Below, in pieces: positions 5,194-44,512 of a stretch of 59,882 nucleotides of DNA (position 1 is the stretch's first letter; every line of letters begins with the position of its first letter). Below the pieces are notes generated by a model. It was not told where the DNA came from. It did not search any database and was given only the letters and a program-made list of their open reading frames with translations. Source of the DNA: a virus; IMG/VR virus record IMGVR_UViG_3300044451_000166, positions 1 through 59,882 of that record; one strand, written 5' to 3'. Position numbers and translations under genes: made by a program.

Positions 5194-5484
5194 TTACCTC
5201 ACAACCGGTTTAAAGGAAATAGCAGAAATGCTTTCCCCGTTCTCTCCAATAATATCATCAAAGCCAATAATGTAAGTTAGGTCAATTCCACGGGGGGCGA
5301 CAAAACCACGTGCAATGGCGGCGGATTTAGCGGCTTGATTAACAGCGCTTGCACCAATGGCTCGCATTTTTGGAAAATGTCCAGCAACAATGGCCCGAGC
5401 CAAAATAGAGCCAACGCTTTGGGGGTTGCTACTTCCTGAAACTTTCAAGACATCTTCAATTTTTGTAACTTGTTGTTCAGCCAC
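5194..5484 (-). CDS. spoVS-like: SpoVS family protein
   Basis: 96 residues from a GTG at 5484, preceded by CAGGAG at five bases; the upstream in-frame residues are therefore left out. The core reads VLKVSGSSNPQSVGSILARA, then MRAIGASAVNQAAKSAAIAR, then GFVAPRGIDL, which is the full SpoVS signature. SpoVS is a small, Alba-related fold implicated in sporulation and in nucleic-acid or regulatory functions in Bacillus; homologues also occur in non-sporulating bacteria. Full-length for the family. In this phage it lies between a resolvase-like nuclease and a basic protein at the end of the replication block, so a nucleoid or RNA-binding role in infection is plausible but inferred. Confidence 0.88.
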   Translation of the reverse strand: MAEQQVTKIEDVLKVSGSSNPQSVGSILARAIVAGHFPKMRAIGASAVNQAAKSAAIARGFVAPRGIDLTYIIGFDDIIGENGESISAISFKPVVR

Positions 5485-5516
5485 GTTGTCTCCTGACAAT
5501 AAACTTAGAAACAAGT

Positions 5517-25941: not shown

Positions 25942-27794
25942 CAAAGATTCTCCGGCCATCCGCTGTTTGAAATTGATAAGTTATTAAACAACTCATCTTT
26001 ATCAGCTCTTAAAGTCCAATTTCCTTTTAGTACTTGTCTAGACTTATAACCTGCTTCAAAACGTCTTGCTTGAATACGCATAGTTAGTTCGACTACAAAT
26101 TCTTCATTTTTGTAAGGAACAACTACTTGTCCTTGATGTCGTGGTCTAACAAATGTCCAACCCTCATTATCCGTAACCCATTTGTCCCTTATGAAACGCA
26201 AGTTAGCATGTCGAATTTCTCCATTACTTGTAATTAAAAATGGATCATCTTTAGTTCCCCACCCCTTTAGATACTCAATTTCAGAAGGAAATGGTTGATC
26301 GTAGTCAACTGGAGTAATTGTGCTTCCTGTTGGAGAATGTCGGTTTTTAGTTACTGTACGCGCTGTATCAGGATTATTTTGATCCGCTCCCTTGGCGTAT
26401 GTATGCCAATACACTTTTATAACTGCCTCATAAAAGAACGTAACTTCTCCACCCGCAGAATTTCCATCTCCTTCATATTGTTTTCTAAATGAAGCACCAG
26501 CTTCTGATTCAAAGAAATCCATTTTAAATTCAAAACGTTGCGTTGAATTAGTAAACACAATATCCTGCAAACTGTCTCGATCACCTTGATTAAACCAGCT
26601 TCCCATTGAAAAGCCCGCTTGATCAACTGCGCCCTTAAAAAACGAATCAACACCTTGTTGAGTTTGTGTGAGAACATTTTGGTTCTCTTCGATTGGACCA
26701 ACTGAATCAGCAACACTTGATGCTGGTGTTTGAGACACTGGAATGGTTGCTGTAAGCATTGTTTGTTTTTTATCAAAGCCAATGTACAACGCCTGCATGC
26801 TTACCTCAACGCTTGCCTGAGACGGAATGTAGTTTTTTGTAAACTTGTGAAAGTTGATGAGCGTTGAAGTAACAAAACCTTCAATAATCATCCATTTAGA
26901 AAACATGACTCTAACAGGAACTGGCGTAATAAACGCAGTATTTCCAAGATTTGGATTTAACGATTGTTCTGACCAGTTCCAAGTCGGTGTAGTCTCTGCT
27001 TCTGTCTTTTCTTTGTCCTGATCGTCGGCTGTACTTGGGTCAGGTGCAGGTGGGTTTGCCGCTCGGGCGATTAGTGTTTGTTTAACCATGTTCAACATTT
27101 CTTGATTAAACCCTTGACCAACGACGGCGTCTAAAACCATGATGTCAGCAAGAACCCCAAGACCACAAACCCAACTTGGATCATATTGGTTGTTGATAAA
27201 GTATTCGGGATCGGTGTTTAAGGTGTTAACAATAAATCCCACGTTCACACTTTTTAGCCCATTTCCAGACCTAAACTTTCGTGAAACCAATTCAGCTTCC
27301 CGATTAAACAGTAATTTAAAACTGTATGAGGCCTGCCCTGGGATTGGAACAGCCAATTGTGATGGTTCTTGATTGAAAAAGAATTGTGTTTCGTATGCAT
27401 TTGCATCCACTGACCGCACAATTGTGTCCGGTTGAAATTGAAAATTGCAGCGACGATTAAAGATTGTTGGGGGATTATCCATTTTTGCGTAAAATTCAGT
27501 TAAGCGTCGAATGTATCCACGTTTTGTTCTTATCCGCTGCGGACGCCTTACCTTTGAACCAAGGTCTATAAAAGTGTCTCCCGGATAAATAAACAACGGG
27601 TTATCTTGCTGGTTGTTTGGGGTGGCCAGAGGAGTTACATTAAAATTAAATCCTTGACTTTTAAGTTTCGCTTGTACAGCAGCAGTTTTTAATTGTGCTT
27701 CTCTTGCGTCCGCTGACCCACTTGTTGCGTTTTGAATAAGTTCGAGATTCTTTTTTTTCGCTGCTCTTTCAACCGCATCTGCTTGTTTTTCCAT
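25941..27794 (-). CDS. Baseplate adaptor protein, contractile-injection tube type
   Basis: 617 residues. Residues about 110-340 show the pattern of CIS-tube/Afp7-type proteins: FQFQPDTIVRSVDANAY, SYSFKLLFNRE, VRVMFSKWMIIEGFVTST and IPSQASVEVSMQALYIG. A Pro/Thr linker at about 255-275 and a beta-rich C-terminus with ELTMRIQARRF complete it. In injection systems this protein, together with LysM, joins tube and hub; here the LysM gene follows at once. Size is larger than typical, so extra domains are present. Confidence 0.65.
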   Translation of the reverse strand: MEKQADAVERAAKKKNLELIQNATSGSADAREAQLKTAAVQAKLKSQGFNFNVTPLATPNNQQDNPLFIYPGDTFIDLGSKVRRPQRIRTKRGYIRRLTEFYAKMDNPPTIFNRRCNFQFQPDTIVRSVDANAYETQFFFNQEPSQLAVPIPGQASYSFKLLFNREAELVSRKFRSGNGLKSVNVGFIVNTLNTDPEYFINNQYDPSWVCGLGVLADIMVLDAVVGQGFNQEMLNMVKQTLIARAANPPAPDPSTADDQDKEKTEAETTPTWNWSEQSLNPNLGNTAFITPVPVRVMFSKWMIIEGFVTSTLINFHKFTKNYIPSQASVEVSMQALYIGFDKKQTMLTATIPVSQTPASSVADSVGPIEENQNVLTQTQQGVDSFFKGAVDQAGFSMGSWFNQGDRDSLQDIVFTNSTQRFEFKMDFFESEAGASFRKQYEGDGNSAGGEVTFFYEAVIKVYWHTYAKGADQNNPDTARTVTKNRHSPTGSTITPVDYDQPFPSEIEYLKGWGTKDDPFLITSNGEIRHANLRFIRDKWVTDNEGWTFVRPRHQGQVVVPYKNEEFVVELTMRIQARRFEAGYKSRQVLKGNWTLRADKDELFNNLSISNSGWPENL

Positions 27795-30649
27795 TACGTT
27801 GTCCTCAACAATTCTCGCTTGATTTCTTGCTGCAAGATCCTAGAAATTTCTTGCGCCACTCGCTGAGCATCTTGTGTGTTGTTACCAGTAGATGTAACGT
27901 AGATGTTTGGAGCAATATTAACACTTGTTCCACCCTGGATGACAACGCCATTACCCTGTTTAGCGGGTGTGTTAATCGTTGAGTCTCCACCACCAAACCC
28001 AAGTGGCATAGTAATTGTTTTTTGTTCAGCTGGTGTGTCGACCACTGGGTCTCCACCACCAAACCCAAGCTCTTTAGTAATTGCTTGGGCCTTTGGCATA
28101 ATAGACTCGGTGTTGGCAAGCGGATTTCCATCAATGTTCCATGGTGAGTAGTTTCCACCGCCAAACAAAATTCGAGCTGCTTTAACGTTTGTTTCTGGGT
28201 CATACAGTTCTTCGTTTTTATCTATCTTAAAATAATTACGTCGCGCAGGACCCATTTTGCCCATCATGTTGATTTGGAACAATCCATATGACAAATCGTC
28301 CTTATCATCCGCCTTTACTCCCGGAATCCATCGAGATTCTCTCCATGAAATAGCAAGCATGTTGGTAATGTCTTTTCCTTTAAAACCACGTTTGTGCAAA
28401 AGCCTGGCAAGGTCATAGGGATCCATCGGCTGTTTAGACCCGGCAAGGTTTGAATAGTTAGTTTCCTCAGTTTTGCTTGAAGAGTTAGTTGCCCCAGTTC
28501 GGTTAGCAACTCCACGAACGGTTGCCGAGCCTCCACCACCATCCATTTTTGCCGCAGTTGCGGCAAACGGTTCCCCAACAATTGACGAAATACTCACTTG
28601 ACTAAAGGTTTCATAGCTGGAACCAAGGGATCCAGAATTCCCAATTACTTTGTCGCCAACAACGGCCCCGCTATGCGGCTTACCCCTAGCGTCAACTTCT
28701 ACGTTTGCAGAATCACGCCTTGTTCCAGCCGGTTGCCCCCAAGGCGAGCCCCGTTTTTCGTACTCGAAACGAGAGTCAGGGAGCTCTGCTGGTTGTACGT
28801 GCCATGGCTCATTATTAACATTAGCAAATGTCTTAAGACCAAACCTTTCTGCATTTTTGACCACCCAATCAAGATCGCCCACAAGGTCCGCCGCCAAACC
28901 AATTTCGTGCATAGAACGACCTGGGGGAGCGGCGGGTGGTCCTGAATGGTGTTTCCAACCTTTTCCATCCCAAGTTAAGTCGGCTTTTTCATTACCTCGC
29001 ACAGGTCGATAACGGTCATGAAACAGCTTTGTCTGTTCAGCTTCAGATCGATGACCAGTACCAAGGCCTACGTTGGGGTTAGCGGCGAACAGGCGCAACA
29101 AACGATCACGGAATTGAGAATTAAGTTTTGCAAAATGCCCAACGTTAGAAAGTTCACCCAGCGTTATTCGCTTAATTGGTTTGTTGTAGCCAATGGGAAT
29201 TTTTGTCGTCTGTGGGCTTCCGGTTTTAGCGGTAGGCACAGGGTCACCAGACATCAGTGTTGCGCCTGTTGCTATTGCCCCAGCTGAAATTGCTAGAGAC
29301 GCTCCTCCTGTAAAGGGTGTAAGGCCAGCACCAACCACAGCCCCACCAACCATTAAAGCACCACCAAGAATCTTGCGTCCAATGCTTCCTTTAGTAGATA
29401 CGCCAGTGCCAACAATTCCAGAAAGTTTGTCTTCAAAAGCTTCAAGTGCCCTGTTTACGCTCTGTATATTTTTTTCCATATCAGCAAAGTTGTCAGCTTG
29501 ACGTTTGTAAAATTGTTCGTCTCGATTCTCTTTTACACGAATGGTTTCCTCAGCTTGAGTAGCAAAGTTTTGCTCAATCCCCATTACCGAACGGTGTTTT
29601 GCGTCTGAAGGGTCGTACATTGTTTTGCTACCAGTTTTTTTCTGATAAGACTGGTTGGCTTCGGCATAATCAAGAACTAGGTCAATCATGTCTGGCGGAA
29701 CGCCGGATGCTTCAAGCATTGCTCTGGTATTTGACCCTTGTTGGCGGGCCCCAGCCAACCGATCAGCATTTGTAAGACCGGTTCTCTGAACAATTTGTTT
29801 AATAACGTTGTCCATTGAGTTTTGCTGACCACCAAAGCCGTACAAACCCGTGCCAAGCATCATGGTCATTCGGTTGTTAACAGCAGCACTTCCCAATGTT
29901 CCAGCCATCTGAGCCATTTGCTCGGTGCTGTATGAGTAGCCAGACAGAGCACGAAGACCAGCAATACCAGCATGGTTTAGTTGGGCATTAATACCTGTAG
30001 ATGCTTGCAAAGAAAGCAACGTATTTATGCCGTTGTAACCAAGTCGAGAACCGCGCATTGGGTCGCGCATATCCTCGATGTATTGCATGTTTGAGATGCC
30101 CTTGTTTTGCTGATAGTAAACCGCAAGCTTGTCAACCGACAAAGAACGCATGTAGTTGTTATCAATGCGGGAATCAAGGGCTTGAATTCCAAGATTTAAT
30201 GCTTGGAACGCAAACATAGCAGCACTAGCTCCACCACCACCACCACCAGGGGCAGCACCACCAGGGGCAGCACCACCAGGAGCACGCGTGTTACCAACAA
30301 ACACTTGTTGGACGTTGGTCACCGTCCCGCTTTGGTTTACCCCAGATCCAGGGGGGCCCATTGGTAGCGAAATACCAGCACCAGTGGGGTTCTGTGCCCC
30401 AGCACCACCACTCTGGGTTCTCTGAATTCCCTGCATCAGTTGCAGGGTCTTATTCAATTTTGTATTGATGTTGGGCAGCGTTTTATTTAAATACTCAAAA
30501 TCTTTTCTAATCTGATTAATTGACGCAGCAACTTTTTCAATAGCTTTAGTGTCAACATTAAACCTGGCGCGCAGATCACCCATCGCTCTGCCGCGACCAC
30601 CACCCTGCGAGGGATTTCCCGCAACGCTCGGTTCGTTAGTTGTTACCAT
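27794..30649 (-). CDS. Tape measure protein with M15 peptidase and lytic transglycosylase domains
   Basis: 951 residues. N-terminus basic with coiled coil (35-75), Pro/Gly repeats (APGGAAPGG, two 15-bp DNA units), helical body, hydrophobic stretch 425-465 (GGALMVGGAVVGAGL). Residues 500-620 are a VanY-like M15 metallopeptidase: TGHRSEAEQ, SMHEIGLAADLV (His581, Asp588) and PWHVQP (His617). Residues 745-840 are a lysozyme-like transglycosylase: ISWRESRW (Glu771), SYGLFQINMMG. It sets tail length and probably locally opens peptidoglycan at injection. It starts by TAATG overlap with the frameshift extension. Confidence 0.9.
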   Translation of the reverse strand: MVTTNEPSVAGNPSQGGGRGRAMGDLRARFNVDTKAIEKVAASINQIRKDFEYLNKTLPNINTKLNKTLQLMQGIQRTQSGGAGAQNPTGAGISLPMGPPGSGVNQSGTVTNVQQVFVGNTRAPGGAAPGGAAPGGGGGGASAAMFAFQALNLGIQALDSRIDNNYMRSLSVDKLAVYYQQNKGISNMQYIEDMRDPMRGSRLGYNGINTLLSLQASTGINAQLNHAGIAGLRALSGYSYSTEQMAQMAGTLGSAAVNNRMTMMLGTGLYGFGGQQNSMDNVIKQIVQRTGLTNADRLAGARQQGSNTRAMLEASGVPPDMIDLVLDYAEANQSYQKKTGSKTMYDPSDAKHRSVMGIEQNFATQAEETIRVKENRDEQFYKRQADNFADMEKNIQSVNRALEAFEDKLSGIVGTGVSTKGSIGRKILGGALMVGGAVVGAGLTPFTGGASLAISAGAIATGATLMSGDPVPTAKTGSPQTTKIPIGYNKPIKRITLGELSNVGHFAKLNSQFRDRLLRLFAANPNVGLGTGHRSEAEQTKLFHDRYRPVRGNEKADLTWDGKGWKHHSGPPAAPPGRSMHEIGLAADLVGDLDWVVKNAERFGLKTFANVNNEPWHVQPAELPDSRFEYEKRGSPWGQPAGTRRDSANVEVDARGKPHSGAVVGDKVIGNSGSLGSSYETFSQVSISSIVGEPFAATAAKMDGGGGSATVRGVANRTGATNSSSKTEETNYSNLAGSKQPMDPYDLARLLHKRGFKGKDITNMLAISWRESRWIPGVKADDKDDLSYGLFQINMMGKMGPARRNYFKIDKNEELYDPETNVKAARILFGGGNYSPWNIDGNPLANTESIMPKAQAITKELGFGGGDPVVDTPAEQKTITMPLGFGGGDSTINTPAKQGNGVVIQGGTSVNIAPNIYVTSTGNNTQDAQRVAQEISRILQQEIKRELLRTT

Positions 30650-37475: not shown

Positions 37476-38555
37476 TCAGGCAATTGCACCGCCCTTGGTG
37501 TTGATAACGACACGAGACTCGGCGGTAATCATGCCGAAGCCCCAAATCGCGTACCAAGCCAAACCGTGCTCACGACCAAAGTCAATGACACCACCGTCAC
37601 GGAGTTCAACCGGGAGGGCAATGGCGTGACCGAAGGCGTTGTCACCAATCATCAGAGCGCTGTACGACGCGGCAGCAGGCGGTTGCGTACCAGCCGAGCC
37701 GCTGTCGATGTCAGCCGGGCCCTGGCCTTGCTTGACTTGCGTCGTCTCAATGAAGACAACGTCGTACAGGCGGCCAATTTCACCGAGCATGAAGTTGCCC
37801 GGGGCAGCGTACTTGGTGACTTCAATGAATTCCGGCCAGTCACGGAGCGCACGACTCTGCGACGGATGGACGAAGCACACGTAGGTGTCGCCCAGACGCG
37901 GAATGTTCTGACCAGCCAAGATTTCAACTGCGTCCTTGACGGTTGCAGGAGAGAGATAGCCCGGGCTTGCCGCAGTGCCAACAGTGCCTGCATCGTATGG
38001 CGAGATCGTTGTACGAGCACCTTCCGCAACGTTGCGACCAAACACAACTGACGGAGGAACCGCAGCGCCACCAGCAAACGGAACTGCGCTCTGGTACAGC
38101 GTGTTGCGAGCTTGAATGTCCATGGACTGCGCCATGTGACGACCCAGCAGGCGCGAGGCCGAGGCCATCACGTCATCGAACGCCGCGTTCAAGAGCAGTT
38201 CAGTGACTGCAATGGCTTGACCGTGTTCCGAAACGGTGATCTGGATTTGCGAAGCCGAAAGAGCAACCGGCTCAAGACGAACACCCTCAGTGAGTGTTGC
38301 GCCGGTGCTTTCGTTCACGCCAAGATTCGTGTAACGCATAAAGTTAACCGTGAGACCCGGCATGACACCAAGCTCTGTCTTCTTCACTGCGAATTGCTCA
38401 AAGCGCAAAACGGGCATCGCCTGGAACAAAATTTCCTTGCTCCAAATTTGCTGGATTGCGGGTGAAAGCGTTGCATCAGACGAGTAACCCGTTGTCGTTA
38501 CCGACGTAAGTCCCGCGCCTGTGATTGCTCCACCTTGTGGGGCTGGAAGTGCCAT
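37476..38555 (-). CDS. Major capsid protein, N4-gp56 family
   Basis: 359 residues. The N-terminus LSPAIQQIWSKEILFQAMPV, then GVMPGLTVNFMRYTNLG, AIAVTELLLNAAFDDVMASA, HPSQSRALRDWPEFIEV and GEIGRLYDVVFIETTQV. These blocks are typical of the N4-gp56 type HK97-fold capsid proteins. GGAGG lies before the ATG; the gene is more GC-rich than its surroundings, fitting very high expression. Confidence 0.92.
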   Translation of the reverse strand: MALPAPQGGAITGAGLTSVTTTGYSSDATLSPAIQQIWSKEILFQAMPVLRFEQFAVKKTELGVMPGLTVNFMRYTNLGVNESTGATLTEGVRLEPVALSASQIQITVSEHGQAIAVTELLLNAAFDDVMASASRLLGRHMAQSMDIQARNTLYQSAVPFAGGAAVPPSVVFGRNVAEGARTTISPYDAGTVGTAASPGYLSPATVKDAVEILAGQNIPRLGDTYVCFVHPSQSRALRDWPEFIEVTKYAAPGNFMLGEIGRLYDVVFIETTQVKQGQGPADIDSGSAGTQPPAAASYSALMIGDNAFGHAIALPVELRDGGVIDFGREHGLAWYAIWGFGMITAESRVVINTKGGAIA

Positions 38556-38588: not shown

Positions 38589-39377
38589 TTAAAACCGACC
38601 TTTTGAGGATCGAGAGTTAAGTAACCTGTCTCTCATTTTAACATACTGATCCATCGACATGTTACGGATGTCTTCCGCAGTCAACGTTTGGTATTCCGCT
38701 TGGGTTTCCATAGGTCCAACCGGCGGGGCCGTAACCGGCGCACCTTTCACAGTGCGCGGAGTGGTCGCCTGTTGAACACTAGCAAGTATAGCAGCGCTTC
38801 GCTGCTTGAGGATTTCTACTGATGTTTCAATCTCTTCAGGAGACCCACCAGCAATAAGGTCAATAAGTTCCGGAATGATTGTTTCCTGTTCCTCGTGCAT
38901 GCGGCGCTGACGGTAGGTCTCAAGTTCACGCAACAAACGTTCCTTTTCCAACAATGCCTGTTGCGCCTGGCGCTCCCGCTCAATTTGAGCAAAACGGTTC
39001 TGCCACTCAGCGTCGATGTTCTGGATCTTGGCGTTAAACTCGTCCTCTTTTTTGGACAGAAGCTCTTTGGCGCTTAGTTCCTCAAACTCTCGCTTGCGGC
39101 GCTCCTCTTCTTCTTTTCGTGCCGTTTCCTGAGCCTGTTTAATGGCGTCCTCACGATCACGAGCAAGAATAGCAAGTTGTTCTTCAAGAACCTTGGTTCG
39201 ACTATCGGCTTCTTCAAGACGCTTGTACAGTTTGTCTTTTTCTTGCTTACGAATCAGCTCAACGTCTTCTTCAGAAAAGACGCGTTGCTTCTTTCCAGCG
39301 ACCTCGGCGGCCTCTGCATGGAATGTTTCTGTCGCCTCTGCTGGGACGACAATTTCATCTGTTTCTCGCTTGCTCAT
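38589..39377 (-). CDS. Scaffold protein candidate
   Basis: 262 residues, almost wholly coiled coil from about 30 to 170 with Glu/Lys/Arg/Gln repeats (EELSAKELLSKKEDEFNAKI), then a Pro/Val linker and a basic end SRSSKGRF. Position between portal and capsid genes and this composition define capsid scaffolds. AGGAG before the ATG. Confidence 0.8.
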   Translation of the reverse strand: MSKRETDEIVVPAEATETFHAEAAEVAGKKQRVFSEEDVELIRKQEKDKLYKRLEEADSRTKVLEEQLAILARDREDAIKQAQETARKEEEERRKREFEELSAKELLSKKEDEFNAKIQNIDAEWQNRFAQIERERQAQQALLEKERLLRELETYRQRRMHEEQETIIPELIDLIAGGSPEEIETSVEILKQRSAAILASVQQATTPRTVKGAPVTAPPVGPMETQAEYQTLTAEDIRNMSMDQYVKMRDRLLNSRSSKGRF

Positions 39378-39428: not shown

Positions 39429-41120
39429 TTATTTATCTTCATCAGGTACACGACGTTGGGCGAACCTTGCGCCGTATGCCCTGCTAGTTATTTTGTTCAT
39501 CAAATCCAGTTCAATGGGGTTTACCCCAGTCCCTGGCAGTACACCCCCACCTTGGGGATTTCCTGCAGTATTAACATTAGCACCTCCAGCGGAGGTCGTT
39601 TGCATTCCAGATGCTTCAGGCAACAGGCCGGTAGCAAGCATCACTGCCTGCCCAATTTGAGCACGAACAAGATCAAGCGCACCCTGGTCAACAGCGTCAT
39701 CCATAAGTTCGTCAAAAATTTCAAGCATTTTTTCATTGGGAAACTCTTCGCCAAGGGCTTTAAGAGCACCCTTTTTTGACTCTAGACCAAGAGCCATTTT
39801 TGATTGAACCTCGTTAAGTTTAATTAAAGCATCAACAGGTAGAGGATCCGGCCAGTGGATAGTGGTTTTGTACGTGTTGGGGTCAGCCGGATCAAGTTGC
39901 GGAAGTTGATCGGCCTCTGGTTCTGCCGACTGTGTGGGATCGTAAAGCAACAATTGTGGTTCAAAGATTGCCGCAGTACGAATTACAATTTCATTCAAAC
40001 GTTCGAGGCCTTGAGTAAAGTGGGTTTTTTTCATTTGGTAACGATTCATCAATGGCTGATACTGAATAGCAAGAGCAACACCACTGGTGTTTGAAACTGG
40101 TTGAAATTGTCCAAGTGCTGTTTCAGGAACACCCGTAATTTCATGCATTGCTCTCTTAATCATTTGAATGTATTCAAGGGCGCCAGACATTTCCCCCCGA
40201 GATTCAAGGTTAAAAACCTGTGCATCTTTGGGTAGCCCTGCCCACACTTTTTTAGGACCACGTTCAAGTTGGCTTGCCTTTGCACCGGTGATGATGGTTA
40301 CCGGGGCGGCATGGTAGTTGATGATGTCAGATACTTCCGTCATCTTTTCGTTGAGTTCACGATTCAGTTGGATGATGTCCCAAATGTCCGACTGTCCCCA
40401 AGGCGACGACGTAATTGTTACGTTTGGAATGTGGACAACAGGAACCATTCCTAAAGCATTGGGGTACTCGTCAATGAGCTCATCATTGATGTATTGTTGA
40501 ACAGAACCATCGGTCAGTATTTCTGTAAAAGTGTAAACCTGACGAGTTCCTTCAGGAGAAGTCCCCCAAAAACGATACTTTAATTTAAAGCGGATCAAAC
40601 GTTCACGGTCATGCGGGTGATATTCCGGAAAGCAGTGAGCAGGGTTGAGGGGAAGGATACGAATACGACCAGCTCGCGGCATGCCAGCAACGTCAACGTA
40701 TGGTTCGTCGTAGGCAACTTTTACAAAACAATCACCAGTAACTGACGCAAGTTGGCCCATTTGCCATAGGAGGTAGTGCTTGTTATTGTGGTTGTCCCAC
40801 ACCTCGTGCAGTAGTCGAGGAATGATCGCTTGATTTTGTTCCGGAACTTTAAATTGCACTCCTTTACCAAAACAAAAGTTGGTAATGAAATCTGACATTG
40901 TACGAACGTAATTCATTGTTACGTTGTTGTCTCCCATTTCGCGGCGGTATGACCAGTGGTGTCCGAGATACCACGCCCACGCGGATGAGTAACGGTTTAG
41001 ACGCGGGCCGTGAACTTCAAACTCTTCATCGGCAAGTTCCACCAAACCTAAAGGGCTGATGGCAACAGTCAAGTCGCTAGATGCCGCCCGGTAAGACGGT
41101 GACCAAAAGTCAATGGGCAT
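39429..41120 (-). CDS. Portal protein
   Basis: 563 residues. N-terminal part WAWYLGHHWSYRREMGDNN, NYVRTMSDFITNFCFGKGVQ, DCFVKVAYDEPYVD, helix-turn DIIQLNRELNEKMTEVSDII, SGVALAIQYQPLMNRY. These resemble the SPP1 gp6-type/DUF1073-like portal family; a dodecameric portal on the capsid vertex is the role. GAGGT before the ATG. It directly precedes scaffold and capsid genes in transcription. Confidence 0.88.
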   Translation of the reverse strand: MPIDFWSPSYRAASSDLTVAISPLGLVELADEEFEVHGPRLNRYSSAWAWYLGHHWSYRREMGDNNVTMNYVRTMSDFITNFCFGKGVQFKVPEQNQAIIPRLLHEVWDNHNNKHYLLWQMGQLASVTGDCFVKVAYDEPYVDVAGMPRAGRIRILPLNPAHCFPEYHPHDRERLIRFKLKYRFWGTSPEGTRQVYTFTEILTDGSVQQYINDELIDEYPNALGMVPVVHIPNVTITSSPWGQSDIWDIIQLNRELNEKMTEVSDIINYHAAPVTIITGAKASQLERGPKKVWAGLPKDAQVFNLESRGEMSGALEYIQMIKRAMHEITGVPETALGQFQPVSNTSGVALAIQYQPLMNRYQMKKTHFTQGLERLNEIVIRTAAIFEPQLLLYDPTQSAEPEADQLPQLDPADPNTYKTTIHWPDPLPVDALIKLNEVQSKMALGLESKKGALKALGEEFPNEKMLEIFDELMDDAVDQGALDLVRAQIGQAVMLATGLLPEASGMQTTSAGGANVNTAGNPQGGGVLPGTGVNPIELDLMNKITSRAYGARFAQRRVPDEDK

Positions 41121-41144: not shown

Positions 41145-41411
41145 CTACTTTTTCTTTTTTGCAGGGACTTTTGTAGGTGTTGCGCTCTTCTTTTTGTCCT
41201 GCTCAACAGCGGCAACCGCCAATTTGACAAGCAACGCCGTGTTTTTATCACCAATCTTAGTGGACAGCCACGAAAGGCCCGCCGCAACTGCCGGGATGGC
41301 AAGTGCAACAACTTCAGTAGACACGTTTGCTTTGACAGCAACGTAAGTTAAAACGCCAAGAACAGAGCCCTTAATAACAGCGTCTTGGTGAAACTTTTGT
41401 AAATTGTTCAT
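41145..41411 (-). CDS. Small membrane protein, holin-like
   Basis: 88 residues: hydrophobic segment at about 15-25 (SVLGVLTYVAV) and 32-49 (EVVALAIPAVAAGLSWL), then a Lys/Pro-rich end KVPAKKKK. Fits a class II holin or other small membrane protein. AGGAG before the ATG. It lies between the HslV-like and portal genes, apart from the endolysin. Confidence 0.55.
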   Translation of the reverse strand: MNNLQKFHQDAVIKGSVLGVLTYVAVKANVSTEVVALAIPAVAAGLSWLSTKIGDKNTALLVKLAVAAVEQDKKKSATPTKVPAKKKK

Positions 41412-41434: not shown

Positions 41435-42070
41435 TTATACAGGTTTGGTGGGTTTTTTGGAAATGTCTGATTCTTGTACGTATGTGTGGTATGGAGCACC
41501 AGTATACGGATCAAATTTAGCAGCTGCCGCCAACGCCTTAATTGCATGTTTCTTTGCGGTTCCAAGAGATGTTTTTGTCTTTGTTTGCAATGCATGCAGT
41601 GCCCCCATTGCGTATTGGGCTCCCGTTCCCAGGGCGTAAACACCGTTTAAATCGGAATACCACGAGTAATTGCCTTCAATAGTGTAGAGCGTCCCATTGA
41701 CAGCAACGATGATTGACGAGCCGTGTTCAGCAATGTGTTCTTTTTCGTCGTTGTCTGGGGCGGCATAACCTTGAAGCTCAAAGCACTCCCTCAACGCCGG
41801 AATAAATTTAGTTGTAATGAATTGATCAAGTTTTCGACCACGCGTCTTTGGCGGAGGTGCTGGAGGTTGAAAAGCATGGTGGAGCAAGTTAATAGCTCTT
41901 ACGTCACCGGCGGCCCCCAATAAATATTTACCATTAAACGCAACTTTTCCTGCGTTTTCTTTTAGTGTTACTAATTGAGTGGCATACCCCTCCTCAACAA
42001 AATCAGTAACTTGAGAATCGGTACAGATGAGCGCAAACCCATCTCCTTGAATGCCAATAATAGTTGTCAT
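41435..42070 (-). CDS. HslV/proteasome-like Ntn hydrolase
   Basis: 211 residues starting MTTIIGIQGDG; removal of Met would leave a Thr nucleophile, and counted from it CTDSQVT puts Asp at position 17 as in proteasome beta/HslV. Then KVAFNGKYLLGAAGDV (Lys and the GxxGD turn), SSIIVAVNGTLYTIE, and YALGTGAQYAMGALHAL, matching HslV's GSG-x-YA block. It may cut phage or host proteins; a HslU-type ATPase partner is not in the window. It overlaps the phosphoesterase gene by 4 bases and lies just before portal and capsid genes, where a prohead maturation protease is often found. Confidence 0.85.
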   Translation of the reverse strand: MTTIIGIQGDGFALICTDSQVTDFVEEGYATQLVTLKENAGKVAFNGKYLLGAAGDVRAINLLHHAFQPPAPPPKTRGRKLDQFITTKFIPALRECFELQGYAAPDNDEKEHIAEHGSSIIVAVNGTLYTIEGNYSWYSDLNGVYALGTGAQYAMGALHALQTKTKTSLGTAKKHAIKALAAAAKFDPYTGAPYHTYVQESDISKKPTKPV

Positions 42071-43242
42071 TTTTTATTTTTTGTCTCAATTGTTTTTGCA
42101 AAAAGTTCCGTGTTTTCATATATAGCCCAACCACTATAAATTGGAATTACTTCGTATTTAAATCGGTGTTCTCCGTTTGTTTCGTAAGTAACCACACTAA
42201 AACCTTGTTGCCAATTTTCATAACGTGTAAGCGGCCTTCCATCAAGATCCACACCACCTCTTGTAGACGGTACAGCACCATCAATCCGAGCAAGACAACC
42301 TGGAGACGCAGCCATGATAGTGCGAGGTCCAGAAAAATCTTCACGAGTTTTAAACGCAGTTTCAATTCGATGAATGTGACCATAAATCACGCTCGTTTTT
42401 TCATTGTTAAGGTAAACGTGGGCAGTTGAACCGGATGATTTAACACGATCTCCGTGAATAACGCGAAGTTTTTCGTTAATCCAATAATCTGATGCCGGAT
42501 ATCCAGGCCGGTATTCAACACCATATTCCTCCATCCTGCACAAATACGGAATAGTAAGTACAGGCCACGAGTCAGGGATATTTCCTTTTCGCAACCCATA
42601 CGCTGCTGCCGCATTTGTCAGTAAATATTTTGGCATTCGTTCCTCGTGATTGCCTGCAAGCCAAATGATTTTGGCTTTTGGAGCAGCTGCCCGCATTTGT
42701 GCGCAGAATGTAGTAGCGCGGTCAATAGCCGCTTGGGTAGTTTGTTGATAAGCAGGAGTGGTCAAATACTTGCCCATTTCAGGCAAATCTAAGTTATCTC
42801 CTACGCACACAATAGTTTCTGGCTGAATCATTGTAATAGCTTCCATTACCACCGCAATAGCTTTTTCGTCGTGAGTTTCGTACAACACGCCGTCTCTGCC
42901 GCGATAGTAACCAATTTGTGCGTCTGGAACAATTACGTCTTTTTTAAATGTCCCACGTGTTTTTGTAATTCCTTTTTTCTTTTCAATAATTTGAACGGGA
43001 CCACGTTGGATTACCGGCCACTCAGGTCCCTGCTCCCATTTAGGAGAAAATTGAATTGCCGCAAGGTCCTGTACTTCTGCTTCATTTTGATCGTTTTTAA
43101 ACATTTGTTGATACAAAGAAACTTGTTTAATATCACCAATGTCTTCAAGCGAAATGTTTTTTCGTTCAAGCAGCTCAGCAATTTTTCCAAGCAGTTTTTC
43201 TTTTTGTTGCGTTTTTAAAACGTCATTCACTATGTTCGACAC
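42067..43242 (-). CDS. Calcineurin-like metallophosphoesterase
   Basis: 391 residues from GTG 43242, preceded by AGGAG at seven bases. An N-terminal helical part (IAELLERKNISLEDIGD) looks like a small DNA-binding or accessory region. Catalytic motifs: VPDAQIG, CVGDNLD, LAGNHEE, VIHGDR, YGHIHR; these bind two metal ions. Substrate unknown; phage homologues may act on nucleic acids or on nucleotides. Coupled to the HslV-like gene by ATGA. Confidence 0.9.
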   Translation of the reverse strand: MSNIVNDVLKTQQKEKLLGKIAELLERKNISLEDIGDIKQVSLYQQMFKNDQNEAEVQDLAAIQFSPKWEQGPEWPVIQRGPVQIIEKKKGITKTRGTFKKDVIVPDAQIGYYRGRDGVLYETHDEKAIAVVMEAITMIQPETIVCVGDNLDLPEMGKYLTTPAYQQTTQAAIDRATTFCAQMRAAAPKAKIIWLAGNHEERMPKYLLTNAAAAYGLRKGNIPDSWPVLTIPYLCRMEEYGVEYRPGYPASDYWINEKLRVIHGDRVKSSGSTAHVYLNNEKTSVIYGHIHRIETAFKTREDFSGPRTIMAASPGCLARIDGAVPSTRGGVDLDGRPLTRYENWQQGFSVVTYETNGEHRFKYEVIPIYSGWAIYENTELFAKTIETKNKK

Positions 43243-43653: not shown

Positions 43654-43682
43654 ACTCTACCCTATTTAAGGTAGAATGTCAA
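43654..43682 (-). promoter_or_regulatory. Promoter candidate with perfect -35 and overlapping inverted repeat
   Basis: On the minus strand TTGACA (43682-43677), 17-base spacer, TAGAGT (43659-43654). -35 is perfect, -10 matches four of six. An inverted repeat (tctacc 43656-43661, ggtaga 43670-43675) covers the spacer and the -10, as an operator would. It lies at the end of the endolysin gene and could serve the HTH/phosphoesterase/HslV-like/portal genes. Confidence 0.5.
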
Positions 43683-44238
43683 CTATGGGAGCAACATTGT
43701 TCTTTTGCATGTATTCCACAACCGCTGGGGGCGGGGTCGAGCCCCTTACGTAGCGCAAGTGCCACGGCTCTTCTGGAACAACTTCCCAGCTAAATCCAAA
43801 CGTGGAAACGTTATCAATAAGCCACTTTAAACGCTTGGGTTCGGCGGCAGTATGCACGTCAACAGCAATACCAAGATTATGTTGAGATGTTCCAGGCGCG
43901 GCAAGGCTGGCAAGTTTGGGGTCTTTTTTATACCATTTGACACCGTTAAACATTCGCGTTGCATTGCCGTTTGGTTTTTTTGTGTAGCGTTGTTTAAACG
44001 CCGCAAGTTGAGCATCATACGTGCGATAGGTATCGCCAGCCGAAACGGGCTTCAGTTCAACACCATCAGCCTTTGCTTTTTCGACCATCGCCGCCCACGC
44101 AGCAGCCGCAATCCAATGCAATTTGCCACCACCAACGGCTGGGCGCAACAGCGAATCGGGAAGTCTGCCCGGCTCAACACCCTTTAGATCATCGGGAAGT
44201 TTTACAGGAACAACGTAGTCCCAAGCAACCTTAGACAT
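43666..44238 (-). CDS. Endolysin, VanY-type M15 peptidase
   Basis: 190 residues from ATG 44238 (GAGGATAACA just upstream). SAGDTYRTYDAQLAAFKQRY, SQHNLGIAVDVH (His120, Asp127) and PWHLRYV (His160) form the zinc-peptidase site of D-Ala-D-Ala carboxypeptidase-like endolysins. No signal peptide, so it relies on a holin. The neighbouring genes encode small membrane proteins and a lipoprotein, a typical lysis region. Overlaps the upstream gene by 8 bases. Confidence 0.85.
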   Translation of the reverse strand: MSKVAWDYVVPVKLPDDLKGVEPGRLPDSLLRPAVGGGKLHWIAAAAWAAMVEKAKADGVELKPVSAGDTYRTYDAQLAAFKQRYTKKPNGNATRMFNGVKWYKKDPKLASLAAPGTSQHNLGIAVDVHTAAEPKRLKWLIDNVSTFGFSWEVVPEEPWHLRYVRGSTPPPAVVEYMQKNNVAPIVDILP

Positions 44239-44512
44239 TGTTATCCTCAGTAGTAGTGCTTTCTTCATCTTCTCGATTGCGGCCAGTAGAAATCATCAAA
44301 CCAGCAAGAGTGCCGGTAATAAAGGTAGCAATTGACGACAAAACGCTAAAAAACATTTTATCATTTTCTGATTGAACCCCAATTGGTTGAGCTACAAACA
44401 CCAATGCATACAAAACCCCTGTGGTAGTAATTAACAACACCCCAGCCAATACACAACCTACGATAAACTTAAGTCGTGCGTCAAGGTCTTCTGAGGTAAG
44501 CTTATCTTTCAT
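44231..44512 (-). CDS. Membrane protein, two TM segments, holin candidate
   Basis: 93 residues from ATG 44512 (GGAG, eight bases). Charged N-terminus KDKLTSEDLDARLKF, TM1 about FIVGCVLAGVLLITTTGVLY, TM2 about FFSVLSSIATFITGTLAGLM, charged acidic C-terminus. Adjacent to the endolysin; thus the best-placed holin candidate, though similar proteins in other phages are only called membrane proteins. Confidence 0.6.
   Translation of the reverse strand: MKDKLTSEDLDARLKFIVGCVLAGVLLITTTGVLYALVFVAQPIGVQSENDKMFFSVLSSIATFITGTLAGLMISTGRNREDEESTTTEDNNV

Follow-up and report, generated by a model that had tools for sequence, protein, structure and literature searches.

The window analysed here, 59,882 nucleotides of viral DNA, carries beside its head genes a gene whose product, judged from its sequence, is an N-terminal threonine peptidase with the proteasome fold. 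It has no propeptide, keeps a catalytically competent set of residues and probably belongs to the AAH type (PHROG 1040). We consider it rather likely that the product is a mobile accessory peptidase, which would work as a BPH-like barrel without an ATPase of its own in infected Actinobacteria, and that it does not serve capsid maturation. We count as observed the fold prediction, the invariant catalytic residues, the purifying selection, the accessory distribution and the movement of the gene.

Results

As shown in Table 1, the peptidase gene lies among head genes. Its open reading frame matches the bounds 41435-42070 of the first-pass annotation exactly and has the MTTIIG start claimed there; the strand, which had not been stated, is minus, with the start at 42070 (sequence MTTIIGIQGDGFALICTDSQVTD...). 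The neighbours were also as described, with the phosphoesterase upstream, and the SPP1-type portal and a small membrane-like ORF, previously called holin-like, downstream. A PHROG search with the latter returned no match. The start of the peptidase overlaps the stop codon of the phosphoesterase by 4 nt (ATGA), and the two genes are therefore probably translationally coupled; their adjacency is retained in most relatives, though not in all. The transcript runs from the terminase through a GP88-like protein, a holin-like ORF, the VanY endopeptidase and the metallophosphoesterase to the peptidase, and then through the small ORF, the portal, the scaffold and the N4-gp56-type major capsid protein (MCP) to contractile tail genes. 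The scaffold relative BRock gp148 occupies the same position as the protein called scaffolding protein in LuckySocke. Because the alignment with the BRock MCP begins at residue 10, the window MCP has no long N-terminal scaffold domain.

Table 1. Positions of the peptidase gene and other features in the window and in related contigs (contig before the colon)
Feature	Position	Strand	Details
AAH-like proteasome-homologue peptidase gene	41435..42070	minus	211 aa; starts MTTIIG
Metallophosphoesterase	42067..43242	minus	phrog_20266, E=8e-80; directly upstream of peptidase
Small membrane-like ORF	41145..41411	minus	88 aa; downstream of peptidase
Portal protein, SPP1 gp6-like	39429..41120	minus	PF05133, E=1.7e-33
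Scaffold protein, separate from MCP	38589..39377	minus	29% identity to BRock gp148
N4-gp56-family MCP	37476..38555	minus	TIGR04387, 126.9 bits (cut-off 60); phrog_1357
VanY endopeptidase	43666-44268	minus	PF02557
Tape-measure-sized protein	27794-30649	minus	
SpoVS-like protein	5194-5514	minus	PF04232, E=8e-19
WhiB-like gene	L011:1545-1877		directly downstream of peptidase
Single-module ClpB/ClpA-D2-like AAA+ ORF	L198:1171-2598, L199:1174-2238 (minus)		170-216 kb phages with peptidase, without ClpP
Slot protein of peptidase-less relatives	L093:7156-7452		also in L079, L086, L096 and L118

Three other proteins of the window deserve mention. The VanY endopeptidase also matches a tape-measure PHROG, phrog_16823, which suggests an exchange of the VanY domain between lysis gene and tape measure. 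Inspected by eye, the tape-measure-sized protein seems to combine a segment resembling VanY/M15 with one resembling lysozyme (ISWRESRW ... YGLFQINM). The SpoVS-like protein is a phage-borne regulator of the sporulation type.

The proposal of a proteasome/HslV-like threonine peptidase was borne out by profile and structure comparison alike, with the catalytic set intact. The protein matched Pfam Proteasome PF00227 (E=1.2e-7, 32 bits against a gathering cut-off of 22.4) and, over its full length, phrog_1040 "peptidase HslV family" (E=2.2e-26). An AlphaFold2 model built from 34 sequences (pLDDT 84.6, pTM 0.82) has the strand and helix order of Ntn hydrolases, and the alpha-beta-beta-alpha Ntn fold is present in the predicted structure according to both the model and Foldseek. 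The top Foldseek match in the PDB was BPH (5ovs, E=9.8e-12, TM 0.66/0.73; also 5ovt), followed by HslV (E about 1e-10) and then by proteasome beta subunits, with a probability of 1.00 for all three; with an rmsd of about 5 A to both BPH and HslV, these matches do not allow quaternary structure to be inferred. Among viral proteins, 37 matched at E<=0.001, and the best one is named HslV. Matches to AlphaRep in PDB sequence searches were rejected as repeat-driven chance, no single stretch being significant.

Across 88 distinct sequences, Thr2, Asp18, Lys42, Gly55, Gly148, Gly150, Asp187 and Thr190 are invariant, and position 52 is Gly in 79; the conserved residues thus include a glycine of the oxyanion region and the second-shell Asp/Thr pair. 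Counted from Thr1 (residue 2), Asp18 is the Asp17 noted at first pass, and the lysine region noted there contains Lys42 (the catalytic Lys41), which lies about 8 residues later than Lys33 of HslV because of an insertion of about 8 residues. The GTG-x-QYA block was found as GTGAQYA at residues 148-154. Translation begins just before Thr-Thr in all 88 sequences, at a Met codon in 84 and at an alternative start codon in 4, and the peptidase is a compact subunit without propeptide. The model predicts a helix at residues 78-99, and the loop after helix 2 (residues about 100-117, QGYAAPDNDEKEHIAEHGS) is acidic, with five acidic residues against one basic residue. Invariant blocks specific to the family are AGD-RAIN, F-PP and Y-W. 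Values of dN/dS among close pairs were 0.017-0.089, and the gene is therefore under strong purifying selection. The enzyme is real and conserved, and it is probably active.

Removal of Met1 would expose Thr2, which would act as nucleophile in a triad with Asp18 and Lys42. The subunits may assemble into a closed ring barrel like that of BPH or HslV, to which the acidic loop would restrict entry. In the infected cell, probably an actinobacterial one, this barrel would break down proteins that are small or unfolded, and no phage ATPase would be dedicated to it. It seems quite unlikely that the protein is a specific Ntn enzyme and not a general protease, i.e. a connectase-like ligase, an amidase or a processing peptidase with a single target. 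The ligase connectase does belong to the superfamily (PMC8665760), and the family's own invariant blocks may be a substrate or partner site; however, the second-shell Asp/Thr pair of protease type and the GTG block are kept, and the closest solved folds, BPH and HslV, are those of barrel proteases.

Among known systems, sequence comparison places the peptidase nearest to the phage and bacterial AAH proteasome homologues (Fuchs et al. 2021), an assignment for which the resemblance to plasmid proteins and the distribution of the family are the grounds. AAH is named for its alpha-proteobacterial and actinobacterial distribution; the survey reported no function for it and no actinobacterial phage carrying it (PMC8665760). 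Relatives of the window's peptidase are likewise found on plasmids of Rhizobium, Sinorhizobium and Streptomyces as well as in phages, and an hhalign comparison of the peptidase family with the Streptomyces plasmid protein gave a probability of 98.7. Like AAH, the window's protein has no propeptide, no AAA+ partner, the Thr1/Asp/Lys set and a related H1/H2 region (F-PP ... F-----R-C----GY). In contrast to AAH, it has residues inserted between Asp17 and the lysine and also in the loop that follows helix 2, it is about 29-34% identical to the plasmid proteins, and its family occurs in phages of actinobacterial type, where the 2021 paper reported none. A scan of bacterial genome contigs for the close subfamily returned a single match, on a gammaproteobacterial MAG contig, and this copy groups with the phage copies; hence none of the contigs scanned is clearly a bacterial chromosome that carries this subfamily. 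On the viral side, the family is well conserved and extends over at least 486 stretches from environmental phages.

The DSL-LC01 protein WJZ48484.1, annotated "ATP-dependent protease subunit" (OQ999401), is about 49% identical to the window's peptidase, but its gene neighbours WhiB at a place upstream of the terminase, whereas that of the window adjoins the small ORF and the portal. Homologues also occur in cultured phages of Microbacterium or Arthrobacter; in LeeroyJenkins, where the homologue is gene 16, the genome has in addition an annotated capsid maturation protease of its own. BPH, the best Foldseek match (5ovs, 5ovt; E=1e-11, TM 0.66-0.76), has a long acidic loop and no unfoldase (PMC8665760). 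The window's peptidase shares the acidic loop after helix 2 and the lack of a dedicated unfoldase, but the two are 18-19% identical in structural alignment and the window protein is known as a single-chain prediction. With HslV (ClpQ) it shares the fold, Thr1, Asp17, Lys and the G[ST]G block, and it differs in its longer loop after helix 2 and in having no HslU. An HslV equivalog was rejected on NCBIfam scores (31.8 bits where the cut-off is 137, and 28.3 where it is 157.75). PPH was rejected as well, since it has about 140 residues and no helix H2, compared with 211 residues and a helix at 78-99 here (PMC8665760). The literature on experimental function of phage HslV/AAH proteins yielded annotations only.

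The first-pass annotation had left two roles open, prohead protease or independent peptidase, and we compared head modules with and without the gene. The sample consisted of 78 fetched loci holding phosphoesterase, portal and MCP, some of them near-duplicates. The peptidase is present in 63 and missing from 15, and the MCPs of the peptidase-less loci are 82-86% identical to that of the window. Twelve of the peptidase-less contigs were also searched with a profile and gave no copy, with a positive control contig scoring 2.7e-113. BRock and LuckySocke, complete genomes of cultured Streptomyces phages, also gave no copy when searched; their portal-scaffold-MCP order is identical to that of the window, and their MCPs are 59-60% identical to its own (for BRock, MCP 60% and scaffold 29%). 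Of the linkage to N4-gp56-type capsids, it thus holds that the gene adjoins such head genes, with an MCP match well above the cut-off, but not that the linkage is obligate, as the 15 loci, with the 12 contigs searched among them, and both cultured phages demonstrate. In peptidase-less relatives the slot between phosphoesterase and portal is filled by a protein of 98-148 aa that is not recognised as a protease, with other small ORFs besides in some; from this gene content, the slot is one that swaps cargo genes. The slot protein has a conserved pattern, W-DAF-G--GW ... HIP-GMV-SIT, and a weak match to phrog_25889.

Since the same module exists without the peptidase in close relatives and in complete phages, the peptidase is most likely not part of head assembly. 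A prohead maturation protease of the N4-gp56-type head, one that removes the scaffold or trims the capsid protein, is accordingly very unlikely. Its position between terminase and portal, near scaffold and MCP, in 63 of the 78 relatives would fit such a role, as would the finding that, in agreement with the first-pass annotation, the scan of head-cluster proteins brought up no further protease. A Pfam scan of 20 further window proteins, with the tail region partly covered, likewise recognised no protease family. Against this stand the peptidase-less relatives, the slot protein that takes its place, and the architecture of the head itself: in scaffolded heads such as that of P22 the scaffold is separate and no protease is needed in principle, and in the window, too, the scaffold is a protein of its own and the MCP lacks a long N-terminal extension. 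The position and movement of the gene in other phages, given below, also speak against a prohead protease. An independent peptidase is the better reading of the natural-deletion comparison, the other contexts and the gene movement, and the gene would be cargo beside the head cluster.

In phages of 100-216 kb that carry the peptidase there is at most a remote relative of the window MCP, tens of kilobases away where found, and in 200-kb phages the peptidase is far from the capsid gene. Of the 56 loci that gave no portal match, 25 have a WhiB-like gene just downstream of the peptidase. Many large phages share this arrangement, as seen in L011, and so does DSL-LC01; co-regulation of the two genes is possible. 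On the peptidase tree a single head-context clade was rejected (AU p=0.0075), and the copy of the window is placed, with those nearest to it, among the copies of large phages (support 95). Compared with L013, where no portal match lies nearby, the window is 69% identical in the peptidase and 43% in the phosphoesterase; with L019 the values are 62% and 74%, and 89% for the portal. The topology of the tree and these discordant identities therefore demonstrate that the peptidase gene has been exchanged independently of its neighbours, like cargo.

No HslU-type AAA_2 ATPase was found in a near-identical contig of 73.6 kb (an incomplete record), in line with the earlier remark that none is seen, and a search of related contigs for the ClpP family found none. 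Of 12 contigs tested, 5 carry a ClpA/B-D2-like AAA+ ORF, and these 5 measure 169-216 kb; the ORF does not adjoin the peptidase, and it is found neither in the near-identical 73.6-kb contig nor in DSL-LC01. From its sequence, this ORF is possibly a partner or a disaggregase. An HslUV-like operon was rejected, as searches with the AAA_2 and ClpP families found no HslU and no ClpP, and the lone ClpA/B-D2-like ATPase is non-adjacent. It is unlikely that the peptidase is the proteolytic part of an energy-dependent machine whose AAA+ unfoldase is borrowed, either a Clp/Mpa-type one from the host or the ClpA/B-D2-like one of the phage. The established paradigm of HslV and the AAA+ ORF of the five large contigs are in favour of such a machine; against it are the distribution and position of that ORF, the lack of an HslU-like ATPase in our searches, and the survey, which found no AAA+ partner co-occurring with AAH (PMC8665760).

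WhiB is typical of Actinobacteria and their phages. We found it in 16 of 17 related contigs, and in the control, among 14 genomes, in Corynebacterium alone. The near-identical contig of the window has no WhiB, and the assignment of an actinobacterial host to the window therefore rests on the kinship of its MCP to those of Streptomyces phages. DSL-LC01 was argued to be an actinobacteriophage likewise on WhiB (PMC10611076). The window belongs to a freshwater phage whose host is probably one of the Actinobacteria. That the protein interferes with the proteasome of such a host, as a decoy or as an incorporated beta-like subunit, is highly improbable. The relatives resemble actinobacterial phages, and 20S proteasomes are frequent in Actinobacteria (PMC8665760); however, the peptidase is closer to HslV and BPH than to bacterial beta subunits (TIGR03690, 13 bits against a cut-off of 191.9), and it retains a full active site, which a decoy does not need.

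Discussion

Phage proteasome homologues were already known to exist, without an assigned function. What is new is the wide spread of the AAH-like peptidase in actinobacterial phages, DSL-LC01 among them, of which the 2021 survey had none. The natural deletion speaks against a part of the peptidase in head assembly, and the question moves to host-directed proteolysis, for which the proteins of DSL-LC01-like phages and of Microbacterium and Arthrobacter phages offer test material. We tentatively speculate, as a doubtful idea, that a horizontally exchanged, ATPase-independent proteasome-like barrel common in phages of aquatic Actinobacteria may, during infection, reshape the proteome of the host or break down particular regulators. 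If true, either use of a phage barrel, in hosts that perhaps have a 20S proteasome of their own, would be a new infection strategy.
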